A stretch of 43,294 nucleotides of DNA from a virus, in the IMG/VR virus record IMGVR_UViG_3300024311_000004, positions 1 to 43,294 of that record. One strand, written 5' to 3'. Positions within the stretch are counted from its first letter, which is position 1. Each line of letters opens with the position of its first letter. The position numbers were made by a program, and so were the translations under genes. This document shows positions 20,273 to 26,030 of this stretch, piece by piece. The notes below the pieces were generated by a model. It saw only the letters and a list, made by a program, of their open reading frames with translations, was not told where the DNA came from and made no database searches.

Positions 20273-20401
20273 ATGGAATCGTTTACAGAAATATTCATGT
20301 ATGTTTGCGTACACTTGGTTGCTGCTGCCTGCACCGTTATGGTACTGGCAATGGCAACGATGATGGTTAAACTACTGATCGAGGGATGGAAAGAAAGATG
20401 A
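20273..20401 (+). CDS. Very small membrane protein (42 aa)
   Basis: ATG 20273 is two bases after the preceding stop. The 42 residues contain a long hydrophobic stretch (YVCVHLVAAACTVMVLAMAT) followed by a short charged C-terminus (KLLIEGWKER), giving one likely transmembrane helix with cytoplasmic tail. It overlaps the start of the next gene. Function unknown; small phage early membrane proteins often alter host envelope or transport. Confidence 0.55.
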   Translation: MESFTEIFMYVCVHLVAAACTVMVLAMATMMVKLLIEGWKER

Positions 20402-20640
20402 AGATCAACGCCTGCCCATTTTGCCAAAGCAAAGATGTGATAGTGCATAAAGCGTCTATCGGGTTTGATTACTCCGTTGGGTGCAATTCTTGCGATGCGC
20501 TAGGCCCATCTGAACAAGAGGCTAAATTTGCAGTAATGTCTTGGAATAAAGGTACTCCGAGATGGAGTAAGGTCTTTGAACTTGAAGCTAAACTGGCTGA
20601 ATTAAACAAAAAATTGAACACCGAATTGAACACGAAATGA
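20398..20640 (+). CDS. Lar-like zinc-ribbon protein (restriction alleviation family candidate)
   Basis: This is an 80-aa protein. MKINACPFCQSKDVIVHK at the start and VGCNSCDALGPSEQEAKFAVMSWN in the middle reproduce the CPFCGS ... C..CG..GP....EAI..WN pattern of the Lar restriction-alleviation family. Lar in Rac prophage modulates type I restriction; related proteins are often only similar zinc ribbons. The C-terminus is a coiled-coil-like helix (LEAKLAELNKKLN). It overlaps the previous stop. Confidence 0.6.
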   Translation: MKINACPFCQSKDVIVHKASIGFDYSVGCNSCDALGPSEQEAKFAVMSWNKGTPRWSKVFELEAKLAELNKKLNTELNTK

Positions 20641-21428: not shown

Positions 21429-21951
21429 GAAGAAGAAACGCCAGTACAAGTCAGCCGAGACCCGTGCAAGGCAGCTTGCCGGGCTTGCCAACGTCAAGAT
21501 CGAGAACCACGTTATGGGCGTGCAGATGGAGAAGATCAACGGCAAGGGACTCTTTGCCAGTATCTCGGAGGATCAACGCAAGCAAATCCTAGAACTATAC
21601 TCACAAGGCCATAGCTCTCACTACATAGCCGATAAGGTTGGCACTAGTCACAATACCGTATGCGAGGTTAAGTCTTACTTCCTAGATTACGATTCCCAGT
21701 TTCGAGAGGCTTACTTCACGGCCAATCTCAAGAGCAAGATGCAGACTATCATTGATACCGCATCTGATCGAGTGATTGACTTGCTCCCAGAGATGAACGC
21801 TAAAGATAGCGTTCTGACCTTGGGCATCGTTCTGGATAAGTACATAGCCGTAGAAAAGGCTAAGGCACCAGAACAGCTTCACAACCACATTCACCTGCAC
21901 GGGAACGCTGAGATTGATGATCTCTTTAGTAACGCCCAAAAGAAGAAGTGA
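21409..21951 (+). CDS. HTH protein, candidate small terminase subunit
   Basis: This is a 180-aa protein. A Lys-rich N-terminus (KPKKKKRQYKSAETRARQL) precedes a clear helix-turn-helix (ISEDQRKQILELYSQGHSSHYIADKVGTSHNTV). Long helices follow (NLKSKMQTIIDTASDRVIDLL), and there is an ExLHNHIHLHG segment near the end. Small terminases combine an HTH with an oligomerising helical core, and the large terminase lies 4 kb downstream, so this is the best candidate. A transcription-factor role is an alternative. Confidence 0.5.
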   Translation: MSAQKPKKKKRQYKSAETRARQLAGLANVKIENHVMGVQMEKINGKGLFASISEDQRKQILELYSQGHSSHYIADKVGTSHNTVCEVKSYFLDYDSQFREAYFTANLKSKMQTIIDTASDRVIDLLPEMNAKDSVLTLGIVLDKYIAVEKAKAPEQLHNHIHLHGNAEIDDLFSNAQKKK

Positions 21952-22214
21952 AGAAACAAAATTTGAAATTCGTACATAGCCCATTGCTTGGCATGGGACT
22001 GGAGTACACAGCCTTCATTGATGAAGCTAAACGAATAGCCTCAGAACTTGTTAAGGCTAAAGAAGAAGGCTTCCTTAAAGATAACCAAGAAGATGCAGTC
22101 AGGCTGGCAGGTGTACTTGCTATTTTTGGTGCGACAGTAGATGAGGTGCATGTACCCCTTACAGAGGAAAGTAAGGCAAGCAAGTGGGATGAGTTGCGCA
22201 AATCATTGGGTTGA
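21948..22214 (+). CDS. Unknown small protein (88 aa)
   Basis: This is an 88-aa frame starting with GTG 21948, overlapping the upstream stop (GTGA). The sequence is helical (AKRIASELVKAKEEGFLKDNQEDAVRLAG) with no motif I recognise. It is the last gene before the repeat-rich non-coding block. Confidence 0.55.
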   Translation: MKKQNLKFVHSPLLGMGLEYTAFIDEAKRIASELVKAKEEGFLKDNQEDAVRLAGVLAIFGATVDEVHVPLTEESKASKWDELRKSLG

Positions 22215-22216
22215 TT

Positions 22217-22299
22217 TTTGAAATTTGAAATTACGATTTCGATTTTTGAAATTACGATTTTTGAAATTTGAAATTTGAAATTTGAAATTACGGATTTGC
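22217..22299 (+). repeat. TTTGAAA 7-bp direct-repeat array
   Basis: TTTGAAA repeats with a 7-base period (two, one and four copies), broken by three GAAATTACG units at about 22228, 22249 and 22284, forming [TTTGAAA]n-TTACGATTT arrays. Units are too short and too regular for a CRISPR. Such iteron-like AT-rich arrays can bind replication proteins or act as an unwinding element. Confidence 0.75.
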
Positions 22300-22403
22300 C
22301 GCCGGGCCGTTCCGCCGCCAGCCAGCCACCGTCGATTTGGCCGCCGCGCCAAAATGATTGAGATGCCGCCGAGATTGTAACGCTCCGCCGCCGCTCCGCC
22401 GCC
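22298..22403 (+). repeat. GCCGCC/TCCGCCGCC GC-rich repeat segment
   Basis: This segment contains repeated TCCGCCGCC and GCCGCC units (for example at 22311-22319 and two near 22384-22402), in sharp contrast to the adjacent AT-rich array. The triplet-periodic GC stretch is not coding in any convincing frame. Confidence 0.6.
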
Positions 22404-22417
22404 AGAATAATATATTC

Positions 22418-22463
22418 CTCCAGCTTGTGGAGCCTGGAATCTTGTTCCGATTGCAAGGCAATC
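22418..22463 (+). other. Two short hairpins
   Basis: CTCCA/TGGAG with a GCTTG loop spans 22418-22432. GATTGC/GCAATC with an AAG loop spans 22449-22463. Neither is followed by a T-run. They may be structural sites in an origin or leader. Confidence 0.4.
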
Positions 22464-22488
22464 TGCCTTTGTCGCATAAATCGAGGGT

Positions 22489-22518
22489 GAGTTGCTTTTT
22501 TATTTGCGAGTTGCTTTT
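22489..22518 (+). repeat. Direct repeat GAGTTGCTTTT
   Basis: Two exact 11-base copies lie at 22489-22499 and 22508-22518, 19 bases apart, about 90 bases upstream of the amidoligase start. The arrangement suits a protein-binding site pair. Confidence 0.5.
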
Positions 22519-22598
22519 GCTTCTCTAGTCTAAGGTTTCGGTGTGGTCTGGACGGCGGGAGTGAAACAACAACCTAAACAGAAGAAAGAAAGTAACTT

Positions 22599-23780
22599 AT
22601 GTCATTGCAAGAAATAGCGTTGAATGTACTAAATAATACTCGCTGGAGTTTCCAATCACGTTGGGAAATTACTCGCCAGCAGAAAGATAGAATCGCGGAG
22701 CGGTTTAAGTTGGTTTGGAGCGAACCTGCCACATGCTGGATTACAGAGGATGAAGCGGTTTTACTGTACAGCGGGTATTACTGCCCAGCTGATGATGCTC
22801 ATGAGATAGATGGACGCTGGTATCACGTTAACGAGCTTAATCATTGCGAGAGTTGCGACGAATTGGAGCTTCCTTGCAATATGCACAGGGTGAGGGTTAA
22901 CAGCAGGAGGCAACTTTGGTGCTCGCCTTGTGTGGACACTGACACGTTTTATTGCGAAGGCTGTGAATATACGTACCACAACGACGAAGCGGTTGAACAC
23001 TTCAACGGTACGTTATATTGCAGAGACTGTATTCCTAAAGAAGAAAATTCCGTTCACTCTTATCATTCACAGTCCCGCCCACGAATCCCTCACGACAAGC
23101 TGGAATTTCCTTTTTGGAGCTTAGAGCTTGAGCTTGAGCTTGAATCAGAGGACGAAAGATATCAATTCGCTAGGGATATTCAAAACGATTCACGTTTAAA
23201 GCGGGAGCAAATTATCTTGGAAAAAGACGGTTCCCTTTGCCATGAAACTGGGGTTGAGGTCATTTTTTCCCTATTTGAATCAAAAGAGGACTTGCTTCGT
23301 AATGTTGCTTTGGTTCAAGAAAAGGCTCGCAACTGCGGAGGATTAAGCTGGCAACTTAAAAGCAAAAGGGGCCGCTGGGCGGGTTGTCACATTAATCGCA
23401 ATAGACAAGGATGGCGTGAAAGGGATTTGATGCGCTTGTGCTATCTAGTGGAAAGACTCCGCTCGCAACTTATAACCCTTTCAGGAAGGAACTGTACAGA
23501 TTATGCAGCTTATTCTGACTGTTATTACGGAACACGAGGAAGGCGACTCAGAGACCTTGCAAGGGGGACTCAGGGAAAGTATTCAGCATTAAACCTATCC
23601 TCTGGAAACCGAATTGAATGGCGAATGTTTTCGGGTTCCCTTAAACCACAACGGATTTCAGCTTATTGCGATTGTATTGAAATGCTGGAAATTTTAGCTA
23701 AAAGCACCTTACCCGCTCATCAGTTAACTAAAACCGCCGCACCCCTTTTAGCTTCAATAAATAATAGATTTAACAAATAA
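22599..23780 (+). CDS. Amidoligase-family protein with N-terminal zinc-ribbon region
   Basis: This is a 393-aa protein. Residues ~80-145 are a Cys-rich zinc-ribbon region (CESC, C93, WCSPC, FYCEGC, YCRDC). The catalytic-type core matches the amidoligase (glutamine-synthetase-fold COOH-NH2 ligase) family: ELELELE (175-181), KDGSL (209-213), GVEVIF (218-223), AGCHINRN (261-268), and KYSALNLSSGNRIEWRMFSGSL (327-348) with Glu340 and Arg342. In the family the 261-268 site is usually CGxHVH; here the second His is Asn. Such enzymes form amide bonds with ATP. It is followed by a class II amidotransferase. SD-like AAGAAAGAAAG precedes TAACTTATG. Confidence 0.75.
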   Translation: MSLQEIALNVLNNTRWSFQSRWEITRQQKDRIAERFKLVWSEPATCWITEDEAVLLYSGYYCPADDAHEIDGRWYHVNELNHCESCDELELPCNMHRVRVNSRRQLWCSPCVDTDTFYCEGCEYTYHNDEAVEHFNGTLYCRDCIPKEENSVHSYHSQSRPRIPHDKLEFPFWSLELELELESEDERYQFARDIQNDSRLKREQIILEKDGSLCHETGVEVIFSLFESKEDLLRNVALVQEKARNCGGLSWQLKSKRGRWAGCHINRNRQGWRERDLMRLCYLVERLRSQLITLSGRNCTDYAAYSDCYYGTRGRRLRDLARGTQGKYSALNLSSGNRIEWRMFSGSLKPQRISAYCDCIEMLEILAKSTLPAHQLTKTAAPLLASINNRFNK

Positions 23781-23802
23781 CAAAAAGAAAGGAAAAGTAA
23801 TT

Positions 23803-24507
23803 ATGTGCCTACTAGTAGTAAGAAAAGCAAACTCATCGTGGAAACCATCAAAGCAGGAGTTTCAAAACGCATGGGACATCAATTCGGACGGCTTTGGCCT
23901 AGCGTACGCTAAAAACGGGAAACTCAGGATAAGTAAAAGCTTGGATGAAACCGCCGCATGGAAAGAATTGTCCCGCCTCCCCGATAATGTGCCTGCTCTT
24001 TTACACTGGCGCATGGGAACACACGGGAGCGTCAGCTTAAACAACGTTCACCCTTTCCAGCTTTCAGCGGTTCGGGATGTTCGGCAATGGGTAGGCGCGC
24101 ACAACGGTGTTTTGTCCAATATTGTCCCTGAAAAAGATAAGACGGATAGTGAAACCTATTTTCGCACCTTAAAGCATATTCGGATTGCCGATGTTGAAAG
24201 GGACATCTCTAAGCTTGGATATGGCAAGATGAGTTTCCTAAGCAACTCGGGTGATCTGCTAATCGCCAATGAAGCCCATGGAAGTTGGAGAACTCCCGAG
24301 GTATGGCAAAGCAACTCAGGCATGGATGATAAGGGGTTTTCGTATTGCGGGTTTGGGAAAAGCTGGAAGCCTACCGCATATCACGGCAAGGATCCTATTT
24401 TGACCCCTATCGAGTGCTGCGTGTGCAGCCGTCAAGCTGTGTCCTATCGTGATGGATTTGACTTCTATTGCGAAGGCTGTGCAACGTATCCCGAAGTGTG
24501 GAGGTAA
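23803..24507 (+). CDS. Class II glutamine amidotransferase-like protein with C-terminal zinc ribbon
   Basis: This is a 234-aa protein. Cys2 follows Met1, giving the N-terminal nucleophile expected for class II (Ntn) glutamine amidotransferases. NSDGFGLAY (27-35), HWRMGTHGSVSLNNVHPF (68-85), AHNGVL (99-104) and DSETYF (115-120) match the family in order. The C-terminal ~30 residues contain Cys205/Cys208 and Cys223/Cys226, with FYCEGC repeating the motif of the adjacent amidoligase. Predicted job: release ammonia from glutamine and pass it to the ligase. It starts 22 bases after the ligase stop with AAGGAAAA upstream. Confidence 0.75.
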   Translation: MCLLVVRKANSSWKPSKQEFQNAWDINSDGFGLAYAKNGKLRISKSLDETAAWKELSRLPDNVPALLHWRMGTHGSVSLNNVHPFQLSAVRDVRQWVGAHNGVLSNIVPEKDKTDSETYFRTLKHIRIADVERDISKLGYGKMSFLSNSGDLLIANEAHGSWRTPEVWQSNSGMDDKGFSYCGFGKSWKPTAYHGKDPILTPIECCVCSRQAVSYRDGFDFYCEGCATYPEVWR

Positions 24508-24525
24508 TTAGAAAGGAAAAAGACT

Positions 24526-24675
24526 ATGAAAGAAGTATTATTTGCAGCCATGGCCCTTTGTGCGCCGATGATGATTGTGACAGCCCTTTGTGGGGTTGTT
24601 GCCTTATGTGAAACGGTAGGCGAGAGACTAGGCAAGAAGCGGTTCCAACGTTGGGAAAGGGATAGGCAAGCGTGA
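24526..24675 (+). CDS. Small membrane protein (49 aa) after the amidotransferase
   Basis: This is a 49-aa frame with GAAAGGAAAAAG upstream. Residues ~5-28 are hydrophobic (LFAAMALCAPMMIVTALCG-VVAL), giving one transmembrane helix, followed by a basic C-terminus (KKRFQRWERDRQA). Immediate position after the ligase/amidotransferase pair suggests it belongs to the same unit, perhaps directing it to the envelope; this is inference. Confidence 0.5.
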   Translation: MKEVLFAAMALCAPMMIVTALCGVVALCETVGERLGKKRFQRWERDRQA

Positions 24676-24690
24676 ATAGGTGATAGGCAA

Positions 24691-24724
24691 GGCGCATCTG
24701 AGGGTTGAATCCTTTGGATGCGTC
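24691..24724 (+). other. Hairpin GGCGCATC / GATGCGTC
   Basis: GGCGCATC at 24691-24698 pairs with GATGCGTC at 24717-24724, giving eight pairs with one G-T. An inner AGG/CCT pairing is possible. The 3' arm can also pair with GACGCATCC at 24892-24900, so two mutually exclusive structures are possible. Confidence 0.45.
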
Positions 24725-24746
24725 CACCCCTCCCCCTCTCCCCCCA

Positions 24747-24766
24747 AAGGTGCAAACGTTCACCTT
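24747..24766 (+). other. Inverted repeat AAGGTG / CACCTT
   Basis: AAGGTG at 24747-24752 and CACCTT at 24761-24766 flank an 8-base loop. It is a possible operator or RNA hairpin. Confidence 0.4.
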
Positions 24767-24850
24767 AAGCTTGCAAGCTGGCTGACTTGAGCCGATAGCA
24801 AACAAAGATTCGGCCCCTTTTCTTTTTCCTTGCATTCATTTTTGAAAGCA

Positions 24851-25074: not shown

Positions 25075-25106
25075 GCTTTCCTGTGGAAGGCTGGGCGTCT
25101 TTTTTT
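25075..25106 (+). terminator. Weak terminator-like hairpin
   Basis: GCTTTCC (25075-25081) pairs with GGAAGGC (25085-25091) across TGT, with one G-T. A run of seven T follows at 25100-25106, but eight bases downstream rather than directly, so it is non-canonical. Confidence 0.35.
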
Positions 25107-25118
25107 GTGTCGACAGTA

Positions 25119-25145
25119 TTGACGTATGAAGATTGGGCGTATAGT
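25119..25145 (+). promoter_or_regulatory. Promoter-like boxes upstream of 25155
   Basis: TTGACG at 25119-25124 and TATAGT at 25140-25145 resemble sigma70 boxes with a 15-base spacer. The -10 box ends only nine bases before ATG 25155, so a transcript from here would be almost leaderless. Treat as a candidate. Confidence 0.35.
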
Positions 25146-25154
25146 CCAAGAAAG

Positions 25155-25565
25155 ATGACACAAAAGTACGAGTTAAGTGAGAAGAAGGTAAAAGAGGTGT
25201 ATGGAGACAAGTTTGAGGACAAGTTGGCCTTACTTGTGGAGGGAGTTGACTACATCAAAGTCAAAGATAAACGGTGTTTGGCTGGGTTTAAACGAGTTTA
25301 CCGGGAAGATCTTCTTGATTCGCTAGAGAAGAAGGTGGGTTTGGCTCAAGATAAGGTCAAGTTGGATGTAAGTCCTGCCAAGTTGGACATACAAGATGAA
25401 GTTATCTTTACTGAAGAGGTACAAAACATCTTTCCAAACACAAGATATGTGCGGGTAAAGAGTGGAAAGACGATTTATGTTGGTGGTAAAGGAACAAGTT
25501 TGCGACTTGGCCAGAAGATAAACTACAAAGGAACCACTATGTTTCTAGGTAAAGCGCAAAGCTAG
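25155..25565 (+). CDS. Unknown protein (136 aa) between two non-coding blocks
   Basis: This is a 136-aa protein starting at ATG 25155 (AAGAAAG upstream); a longer GTG start at 25083 lies in the terminator-like hairpin and is rejected. It is basic and charged, with helical N-terminal (YELSEKKVKEVYGDKFEDKLALLV) and a beta-like C-terminal part (RYVRVKSGKTIYVGG). It might be DNA-binding, consistent with its isolated, regulated setting. No family recognised. Confidence 0.6.
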   Translation: MTQKYELSEKKVKEVYGDKFEDKLALLVEGVDYIKVKDKRCLAGFKRVYREDLLDSLEKKVGLAQDKVKLDVSPAKLDIQDEVIFTEEVQNIFPNTRYVRVKSGKTIYVGGKGTSLRLGQKINYKGTTMFLGKAQS

Positions 25566-25723: not shown

Positions 25724-26001
25724 TAAAAAAGAAAAGAAAATCTTTTTATGAAGTTACTTAAGCTCACCGCAAGAAGAAGTGACACTCACCGTCACCGTCG
25801 CCTTTCGTTTCGCTTTTACCAAGTCACGCGCAGAGGGTACCCGAGTCAACCTACGCTAGTCTTCTTTCGTGGACTACTTGGAAGTATCAGGTTCCCAGCC
25901 CCTGAGTTTTTAATCCCCCCCGGTTTTCATGCAAGGGGAACCTCTCCTTCACCTGTGGCTCGCCTTACGCGACTATCCAGAGGCTACACGGCAGATCTAT
26001 T

Positions 26002-26030
26002 TTGACCTGCGAGGTAAACATAGCTACATA
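26002..26030 (+). promoter_or_regulatory. Promoter-like boxes before large terminase
   Basis: TTGACC (26002-26007) and TACATA (26025-26030) are spaced 17 bases. The -10 box overlaps the AGGAG at 26030-26034, seven bases before ATG 26038, so an RNA starting here would lose the Shine-Dalgarno. A genuine promoter should then be elsewhere, or translation is leaderless. Confidence 0.3.

Follow-up and report, generated by a model that had tools for sequence, protein, structure and literature searches.

Why would a virus of bacteria encode an amide-forming ligase directly beside a class II glutamine amidotransferase (GAT), and do the two proteins serve a single reaction? The window analysed here is the whole stretch of 43,294 nucleotides of IMGVR_UViG_3300024311_000004 (positions 1 to 43,294), for which the host type is bacteria. 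Its ligase and GAT ORFs are co-directional and separated by 22 nt, each preceded by a purine-rich, ribosome-site-like stretch, and their coordinates and order (Table 1) agree with an earlier, sequence-only reading of this DNA. That reading described a GS-fold amidoligase beside a class II GAT and took the two to be functionally linked; families, folds, invariant residues and co-occurrence all bear this out, and the proteins almost certainly work together as a pair. The enzyme pair, its adjacency and its functional link thus stand, while the idea that an identical hexamer in both proteins marks co-evolved docking does not. Phage amidoligase-GAT pairing with a proposed cell-wall role is already published, and the window holds a minimal version of a known module; what is new here is that the pairing is quantified and the locus is found to be exchangeable.

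Table 1. Features of the amidoligase-GAT locus (window coordinates)
Feature	Coordinates	Strand	Basis
GS-fold amidoligase, 393 aa	22599..23780	+	Family profile, AlphaFold model, invariant catalytic residues
Ligase N-terminal Cys-pair (LIM-like, putative zinc-knuckle) region, residues 83-144; FYCEGC at residues 117-122 = nt 22947-22964	22845..23030	+	
Ligase glutamine-synthetase-like catalytic domain, residues 167-393	23097..23777	+	Structure alignments span model residues 167-393
Class II glutamine amidotransferase (GAT), 234 aa, starts Met-Cys	23803..24507	+	PF13230, GlmS-like profile and model
GAT C-terminal Cys-pair ribbon, residues 205-226; FYCEGC at residues 221-226 = nt 24463-24480	24415..24480	+	
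Small membrane protein (49 aa), third cassette gene	24526..24675	+	Hydropathy, similar ORFs in relatives
Divergence block marking the exchangeable cassette	22301..24850	.	Nucleotide identity, dS, replacement in relatives

The sequence-only reading had named profiles of both enzyme families as the check on its assignments, and the outcome was divided: PF13230 (GATase_4) matches the GAT above its curated cut-off (E 9e-9, 35.1 bits against 23), whereas PF12224 matches the window ligase weakly and below its own in a Pfam profile search (E 0.081, 13.2 bits against 22). The ligase assignment is secured indirectly, because 41 of the 59 members of the aligned ligase family match PF12224 at 1e-3 or better (best 3e-16) and because the AlphaFold model of the window protein (single chain, mean pLDDT 89) has the glutamine synthetase fold, aligning to glutamine synthetase with a Z of 13.5 and an rmsd of 3.6 over 183 residues. 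Foldseek matches the model to YbdK, PafA and Dop, and phrog_16683 matches the protein at E 4e-8. Eleven positions are invariant across the family (E176, E178, D210, S212, G218, E220, G262, H264, R297, E340 and R342), and the catalytic set of glutamine synthetase is present, comprising the metal-binding Glu pair (E176, E178), a further Glu (E220), His (H264), Arg (R297) and the C-terminal E-x-R (E340, R342). One position departs from the usual pattern. Most members carry an HxH motif at the ATP site, whose second His is Asn in the window ligase (HIN), a form found in 12 of 82 non-redundant pairs, the window included; the activity of this ligase could therefore be altered, which counts against the explanation favoured below. 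Its closest viral model is A0A6J7X2B6 of an uncultured Caudovirales phage, 56% identical across the full ligase length, known as a predicted model and named 'LIM domain containing protein'. Searches with single sequences retrieved little: tblastn found no match to the window ligase in phage records and none to the ligase of the relative L088 in plasmid records, and a scan of viral contigs with the window ligase as a single sequence returned nothing, whereas the alignment-based scan succeeded.

For the GAT the assignment is direct. Its profile matches GlmS at E 8e-11 and also finds PurF, and its AlphaFold model (single chain, mean pLDDT 86) aligns to the GlmS glutaminase domain with a Z of 15.4. 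The features of a class II GAT of the Ntn type are all in place, namely a Cys that becomes N-terminal after Met removal (C2), the glutamine-site Arg (R70), the oxyanion Asn-Gly (N101, G102) and an Asp (D115); these residues, together with T73, are invariant in the GAT family. The gene is under purifying selection, with a dN/dS of about 0.07.

How tight is the pairing? Alignment-based scans of IMG/VR gathered 80 GAT-seeded and 71 ligase-seeded loci, with a few contigs in both. The partner is present, and usually adjacent, in 145 of these 151 loci (77/80 GAT-seeded and 68/71 ligase-seeded), and the six without one (L024, L025, L069, L097, L101 and L151) all lie so close to a contig end that under 240 nt remain on the partner side. 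The sequence-only reading had held that genomes in which the two never co-occur would speak against it; in IMG/VR, every unpaired locus ends at a contig edge. The ligase precedes the GAT in 144 of 151 pairs, with a median gap of 12 nt (window and annotated phages counted), and clustering by GAT identity leaves 82 of these pairs at 90% and 35 groups at 50%. Paired genes were the seeds of the search, so the counts describe this GAT/ligase clade rather than all PF12224 proteins, and this possible bias in the co-occurrence count also weighs against the favoured explanation. Ligase and GAT distances correlate (r 0.79), and in 18 loci the ligase-GAT correlation is 0.87, against 0.79 and 0.72 with a helicase. 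The association is thus more than chance, an almost obligate adjacency, which recommends the two proteins for co-expression and biochemical work.

Bacterial genomes contain 15 loci with the pair, mostly in Actinobacteria, and a sixteenth (L169, Atopobiaceae) in a frameshifted form. A ligase-GAT fusion was considered for the latter and rejected, since its ligase tail shows a frameshift when compared with that of Collinsella L162 and a fused GAT would lose its N-terminal Cys. Unpaired bacterial matches number only five, all weak-scoring and, at 571-613 aa, of the size of GlmS. Bacterial copies lie near ArdC, SSB, GajA/GajB, Abi_2 or AbiEii genes, which suggests that they reside in accessory DNA. 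In Collinsella sp. An7 (L162 1197-8771) the pair adjoins GajA/GajB (Gabija) and Abi_2 genes, and Nocardia sp. CDC159 (L166 6799-10859) has two ligase-GAT pairs in tandem.

Annotated phages place the window within a wider set of modules. Marvin (gp105-106), MEP401/402 and the podovirus MW202733 likewise encode a GS-fold ligase immediately before a class II GAT, with GATs 25-31% identical to that of the window and ligases that are alignable, if more weakly. Their ligases are longer (453-548 aa) and carry HxH where the window has HxN, and the GATs of MEP402 and MW202733 lack the tail ribbon seen in the window. Marvin gp105 (JF704100.1 61626-62987; L004 3563-4924) is labelled 'glutamine amidotransferase domain protein'; it is the amidoligase, and gp106 is the GAT. 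Two reports on 'peptidoglycan modification' cassettes of the LUZ24/tf/UFV-P2 and RIO-1/phiEco32 types describe Amidoligase_2 together with a class II GAT in a single cluster of early genes, with a proposed role in peptidoglycan or superinfection (PMC3890496, PMC5498523). The two families occur together there as in the window, but such cassettes additionally contain an ATP-grasp enzyme, a protein of the AIG2/GGCT type and another ligase, none of which was found in the window. Searching the window with a profile made from ATP-grasp genes at neighbouring loci gave no match, and no AIG2/GGCT match was found among the window ORFs scanned against Pfam, a scan that left out some very short ORFs. Of the 158 loci gathered, 19 have an R2K ATP-grasp gene, mostly right 3' of the GAT. 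Peptidoglycan amidation by the MurT-GatD complex offers a further comparison, an ATP-dependent ligase and a glutaminase encoded side by side that amidate a carboxylate (PMC3267633; PMC5871853). The side-by-side arrangement of ligase and glutaminase is what the window pair has in common with it. The folds differ, MurT-GatD combining a Mur ligase with a class I GAT, against the GS fold and class II GAT of the window.

Both proteins carry Cys pairs and the FYCEGC hexamer, as the sequence-only reading had observed, with four CxxC in the ligase (C83, C108, C119, C141) and two in the GAT tail (C205, C223). The Cys pairs are a family trait, beyond chance: among the 82 non-redundant pairs, two or more CxxC are present in 66 ligases and in 52 GAT tails, and LIM proteins of the PDB are matched by the ligase family profile, the best at E 1e-4. 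Does the shared hexamer signal docking between the partners? The comparative data contradict this part of the earlier interpretation. Any 6-mer in common was found in 1 of 40 true pairs and in 5 of 1,560 mismatched pairs. In the nearest relative (L005, whose GAT is 86% identical) the ligase reads FWCEGC against FYCEGC in the GAT, and in the next (L088) the two read FTCYNC and FYCDTC, so that the match is already gone in the two closest relatives, and the presence of a ribbon in one partner is uncorrelated with its presence in the other (Fisher p 0.39, 82 non-redundant pairs). With so low a rate in true pairs and its loss in both relatives, the hexamer is rejected as a docking signal, and the presence of FYCEGC in both proteins is most readily explained by chance, given how common this kind of knuckle pattern is. 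Ribbons of true partners resemble each other slightly more than those of mismatched proteins do (42.7 against 39.3; permutation p 0.0016, a test that ignores kinship). For the putative zinc knuckles, docking or recognition of the target is the most likely function.

Directly 3' of the GAT, starting 18 nt after its end, the small membrane ORF announced by the sequence-only reading is indeed found; the ribosome-site-like GAAAGGAAAA precedes it, and its hydropathy reaches 2.34 over 19 residues. Similar small ORFs follow the GAT in L005, L006, L088, L185 and L189. As a general partner of the pair this protein is rejected: by a simple criterion it accompanies 6 of 82 pairs, though it is found in the six cassette-bearing members of the window's lineage. 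Together, ligase, GAT and membrane gene constitute an exchangeable cassette at one site upstream of the terminase gene. Nucleotide identity between the window and its nearest relative (L005/L007) is mostly 53-83% within 22300-24850, against mostly 80-95% in the flanks, and dS is 1.7 for the GAT and saturated for the ligase, against 0.25 for an HTH gene, 0.52 and 0.59 for the adjoining genes on either side and 0.36 for the terminase. A sample of 24 contigs of this lineage was retrieved through a conserved element upstream of the terminase. Six members, the window among them, have the ligase and/or GAT at the same place, and in 11 relatives with both flanking genes unrelated small minus-strand ORFs replace the cassette, which is therefore accessory. 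The replacing ORFs, of about 54-167 aa (L180, L183, L186, L192-L194 and L198-L202), are flanked by homologues of window 21948-22214 and 25083-25565. Setting the window beside its relatives thus offers a natural with/without comparison at one locus. Directly 5' of the cassette, at 22213-22289, lies an AT-rich imperfect tandem repeat with 7- and 21-nt units and the motif TTTGAAA.

What would the pair do? The enzyme families imply the chemistry, glutamine hydrolysis plus ATP-dependent amide formation, and ligase and GAT probably form one functional unit for the glutamine-dependent amidation of a host carboxylate. With its N-terminal cysteine the GAT would hydrolyse glutamine, and the ligase would use ATP to activate a carboxylate and amidate it with the released ammonia (or another amine), while the zinc knuckles would dock or recognise the target. 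We infer from this both glutaminase and ligase activity, as well as transfer or channelling of ammonia within a physical complex. In this phage the unit, accompanied by a small membrane protein, would act as an accessory cassette that is swapped at one site, and modification of a carboxylate-bearing host target during infection is its most likely purpose. Against this amidation scheme, free ammonia can serve as a substrate for GS-fold enzymes, and a dedicated GAT is therefore in principle dispensable. The fold of the GAT is a further point against it, as it fits the hydrolysis of a gamma-glutamyl amide by an EgtC-like enzyme equally well (Z 15.3 to EgtC, against 15.4 to GlmS). Could the two proteins then act in sequence on a small molecule, as EgtA and EgtC do? 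The ligase would attach a gamma-glutamyl group to an amine, and the resulting amide would later be hydrolysed by the GAT-fold protein, a protection and deprotection route with no ammonia transfer, to which the Foldseek matches of the ligase model to YbdK-type gamma-glutamyl ligases (1tt4, 1r8g) would also be suited. The GAT profile, however, finds the glutaminases GlmS and PurF, with EgtC absent among its matches at 1e-3, and enzymes of a metabolic route need no constant adjacency, yet this pair is nearly always adjacent; we consider such a route unlikely.

The remaining alternatives concern the target of the glutamine-dependent amidation favoured here. The cell envelope is a guess, and a doubtful one. 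A cell-wall peptide as substrate is likewise a guess, already published, with which the membrane protein fits weakly; the literature has proposed a superinfection or a cell-wall role for phage amidoligase-GAT pairs. No feature of the window identifies the target, and no experimental work on any member of the pair was found in the literature surveyed. The pair might instead modify a host defence protein or signal molecule in a conflict between elements. The locus is accessory and exchangeable, a Lar restriction-alleviation gene lies nearby in the window, and bacterial copies are found near ArdC, GajA/GajB, Abi_2 and AbiEii, a raw proximity taken without a background rate for accessory genes; neither protein matches any PADLOC model at 0.01, however, and an anti-defence role seems improbable. 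Amidation or aminoacylation of a carboxylated DNA base is very unlikely. Its precedent is the phage ATP-dependent amide ligase CmoY, which joins glycine to carboxymethylcytosine and some of whose homologues have a glutaminase domain (PMC12783734), but CmoY is an asparagine-synthetase homologue and not a GS-fold enzyme. The ORFs scanned in the window, which may be incomplete, yielded no gene for base modification (thymidylate synthase type, methyltransferase, 2OG oxygenase or CmoA), and DNA-modification genes are rejected as recurrent surroundings of the pair, the one exception being a cytosine methylase-like gene in three loci. A more elaborate scheme, which we regard as quite unlikely, would have the three-gene module amidate a host target that is associated with the membrane or wall and selected by fast-evolving zinc knuckles, confer immunity to competing phages or a defence system, and alternate at one site with an unrelated module of similar use.

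Other features of the window deserve mention. Just upstream of the terminase gene, an element of about 240 nt (25783-26022) shows about 94% mean column identity over 18 aligned copies from 24 matching contigs and is far better conserved than the protein genes of the same contigs. It matches no Rfam family at gathering and nothing in phage records, and folding of the single sequence is no better than that of shuffles (z -0.05). The RNAalifold consensus has 58 pairs, five of them with two-sided compensatory changes, and the element is a candidate structured RNA or packaging element. The Lar-type restriction-alleviation protein is encoded at 20386-20640 (placed by sequence), and a VanY/M15-type peptidase encoded in the window is a possible endolysin.
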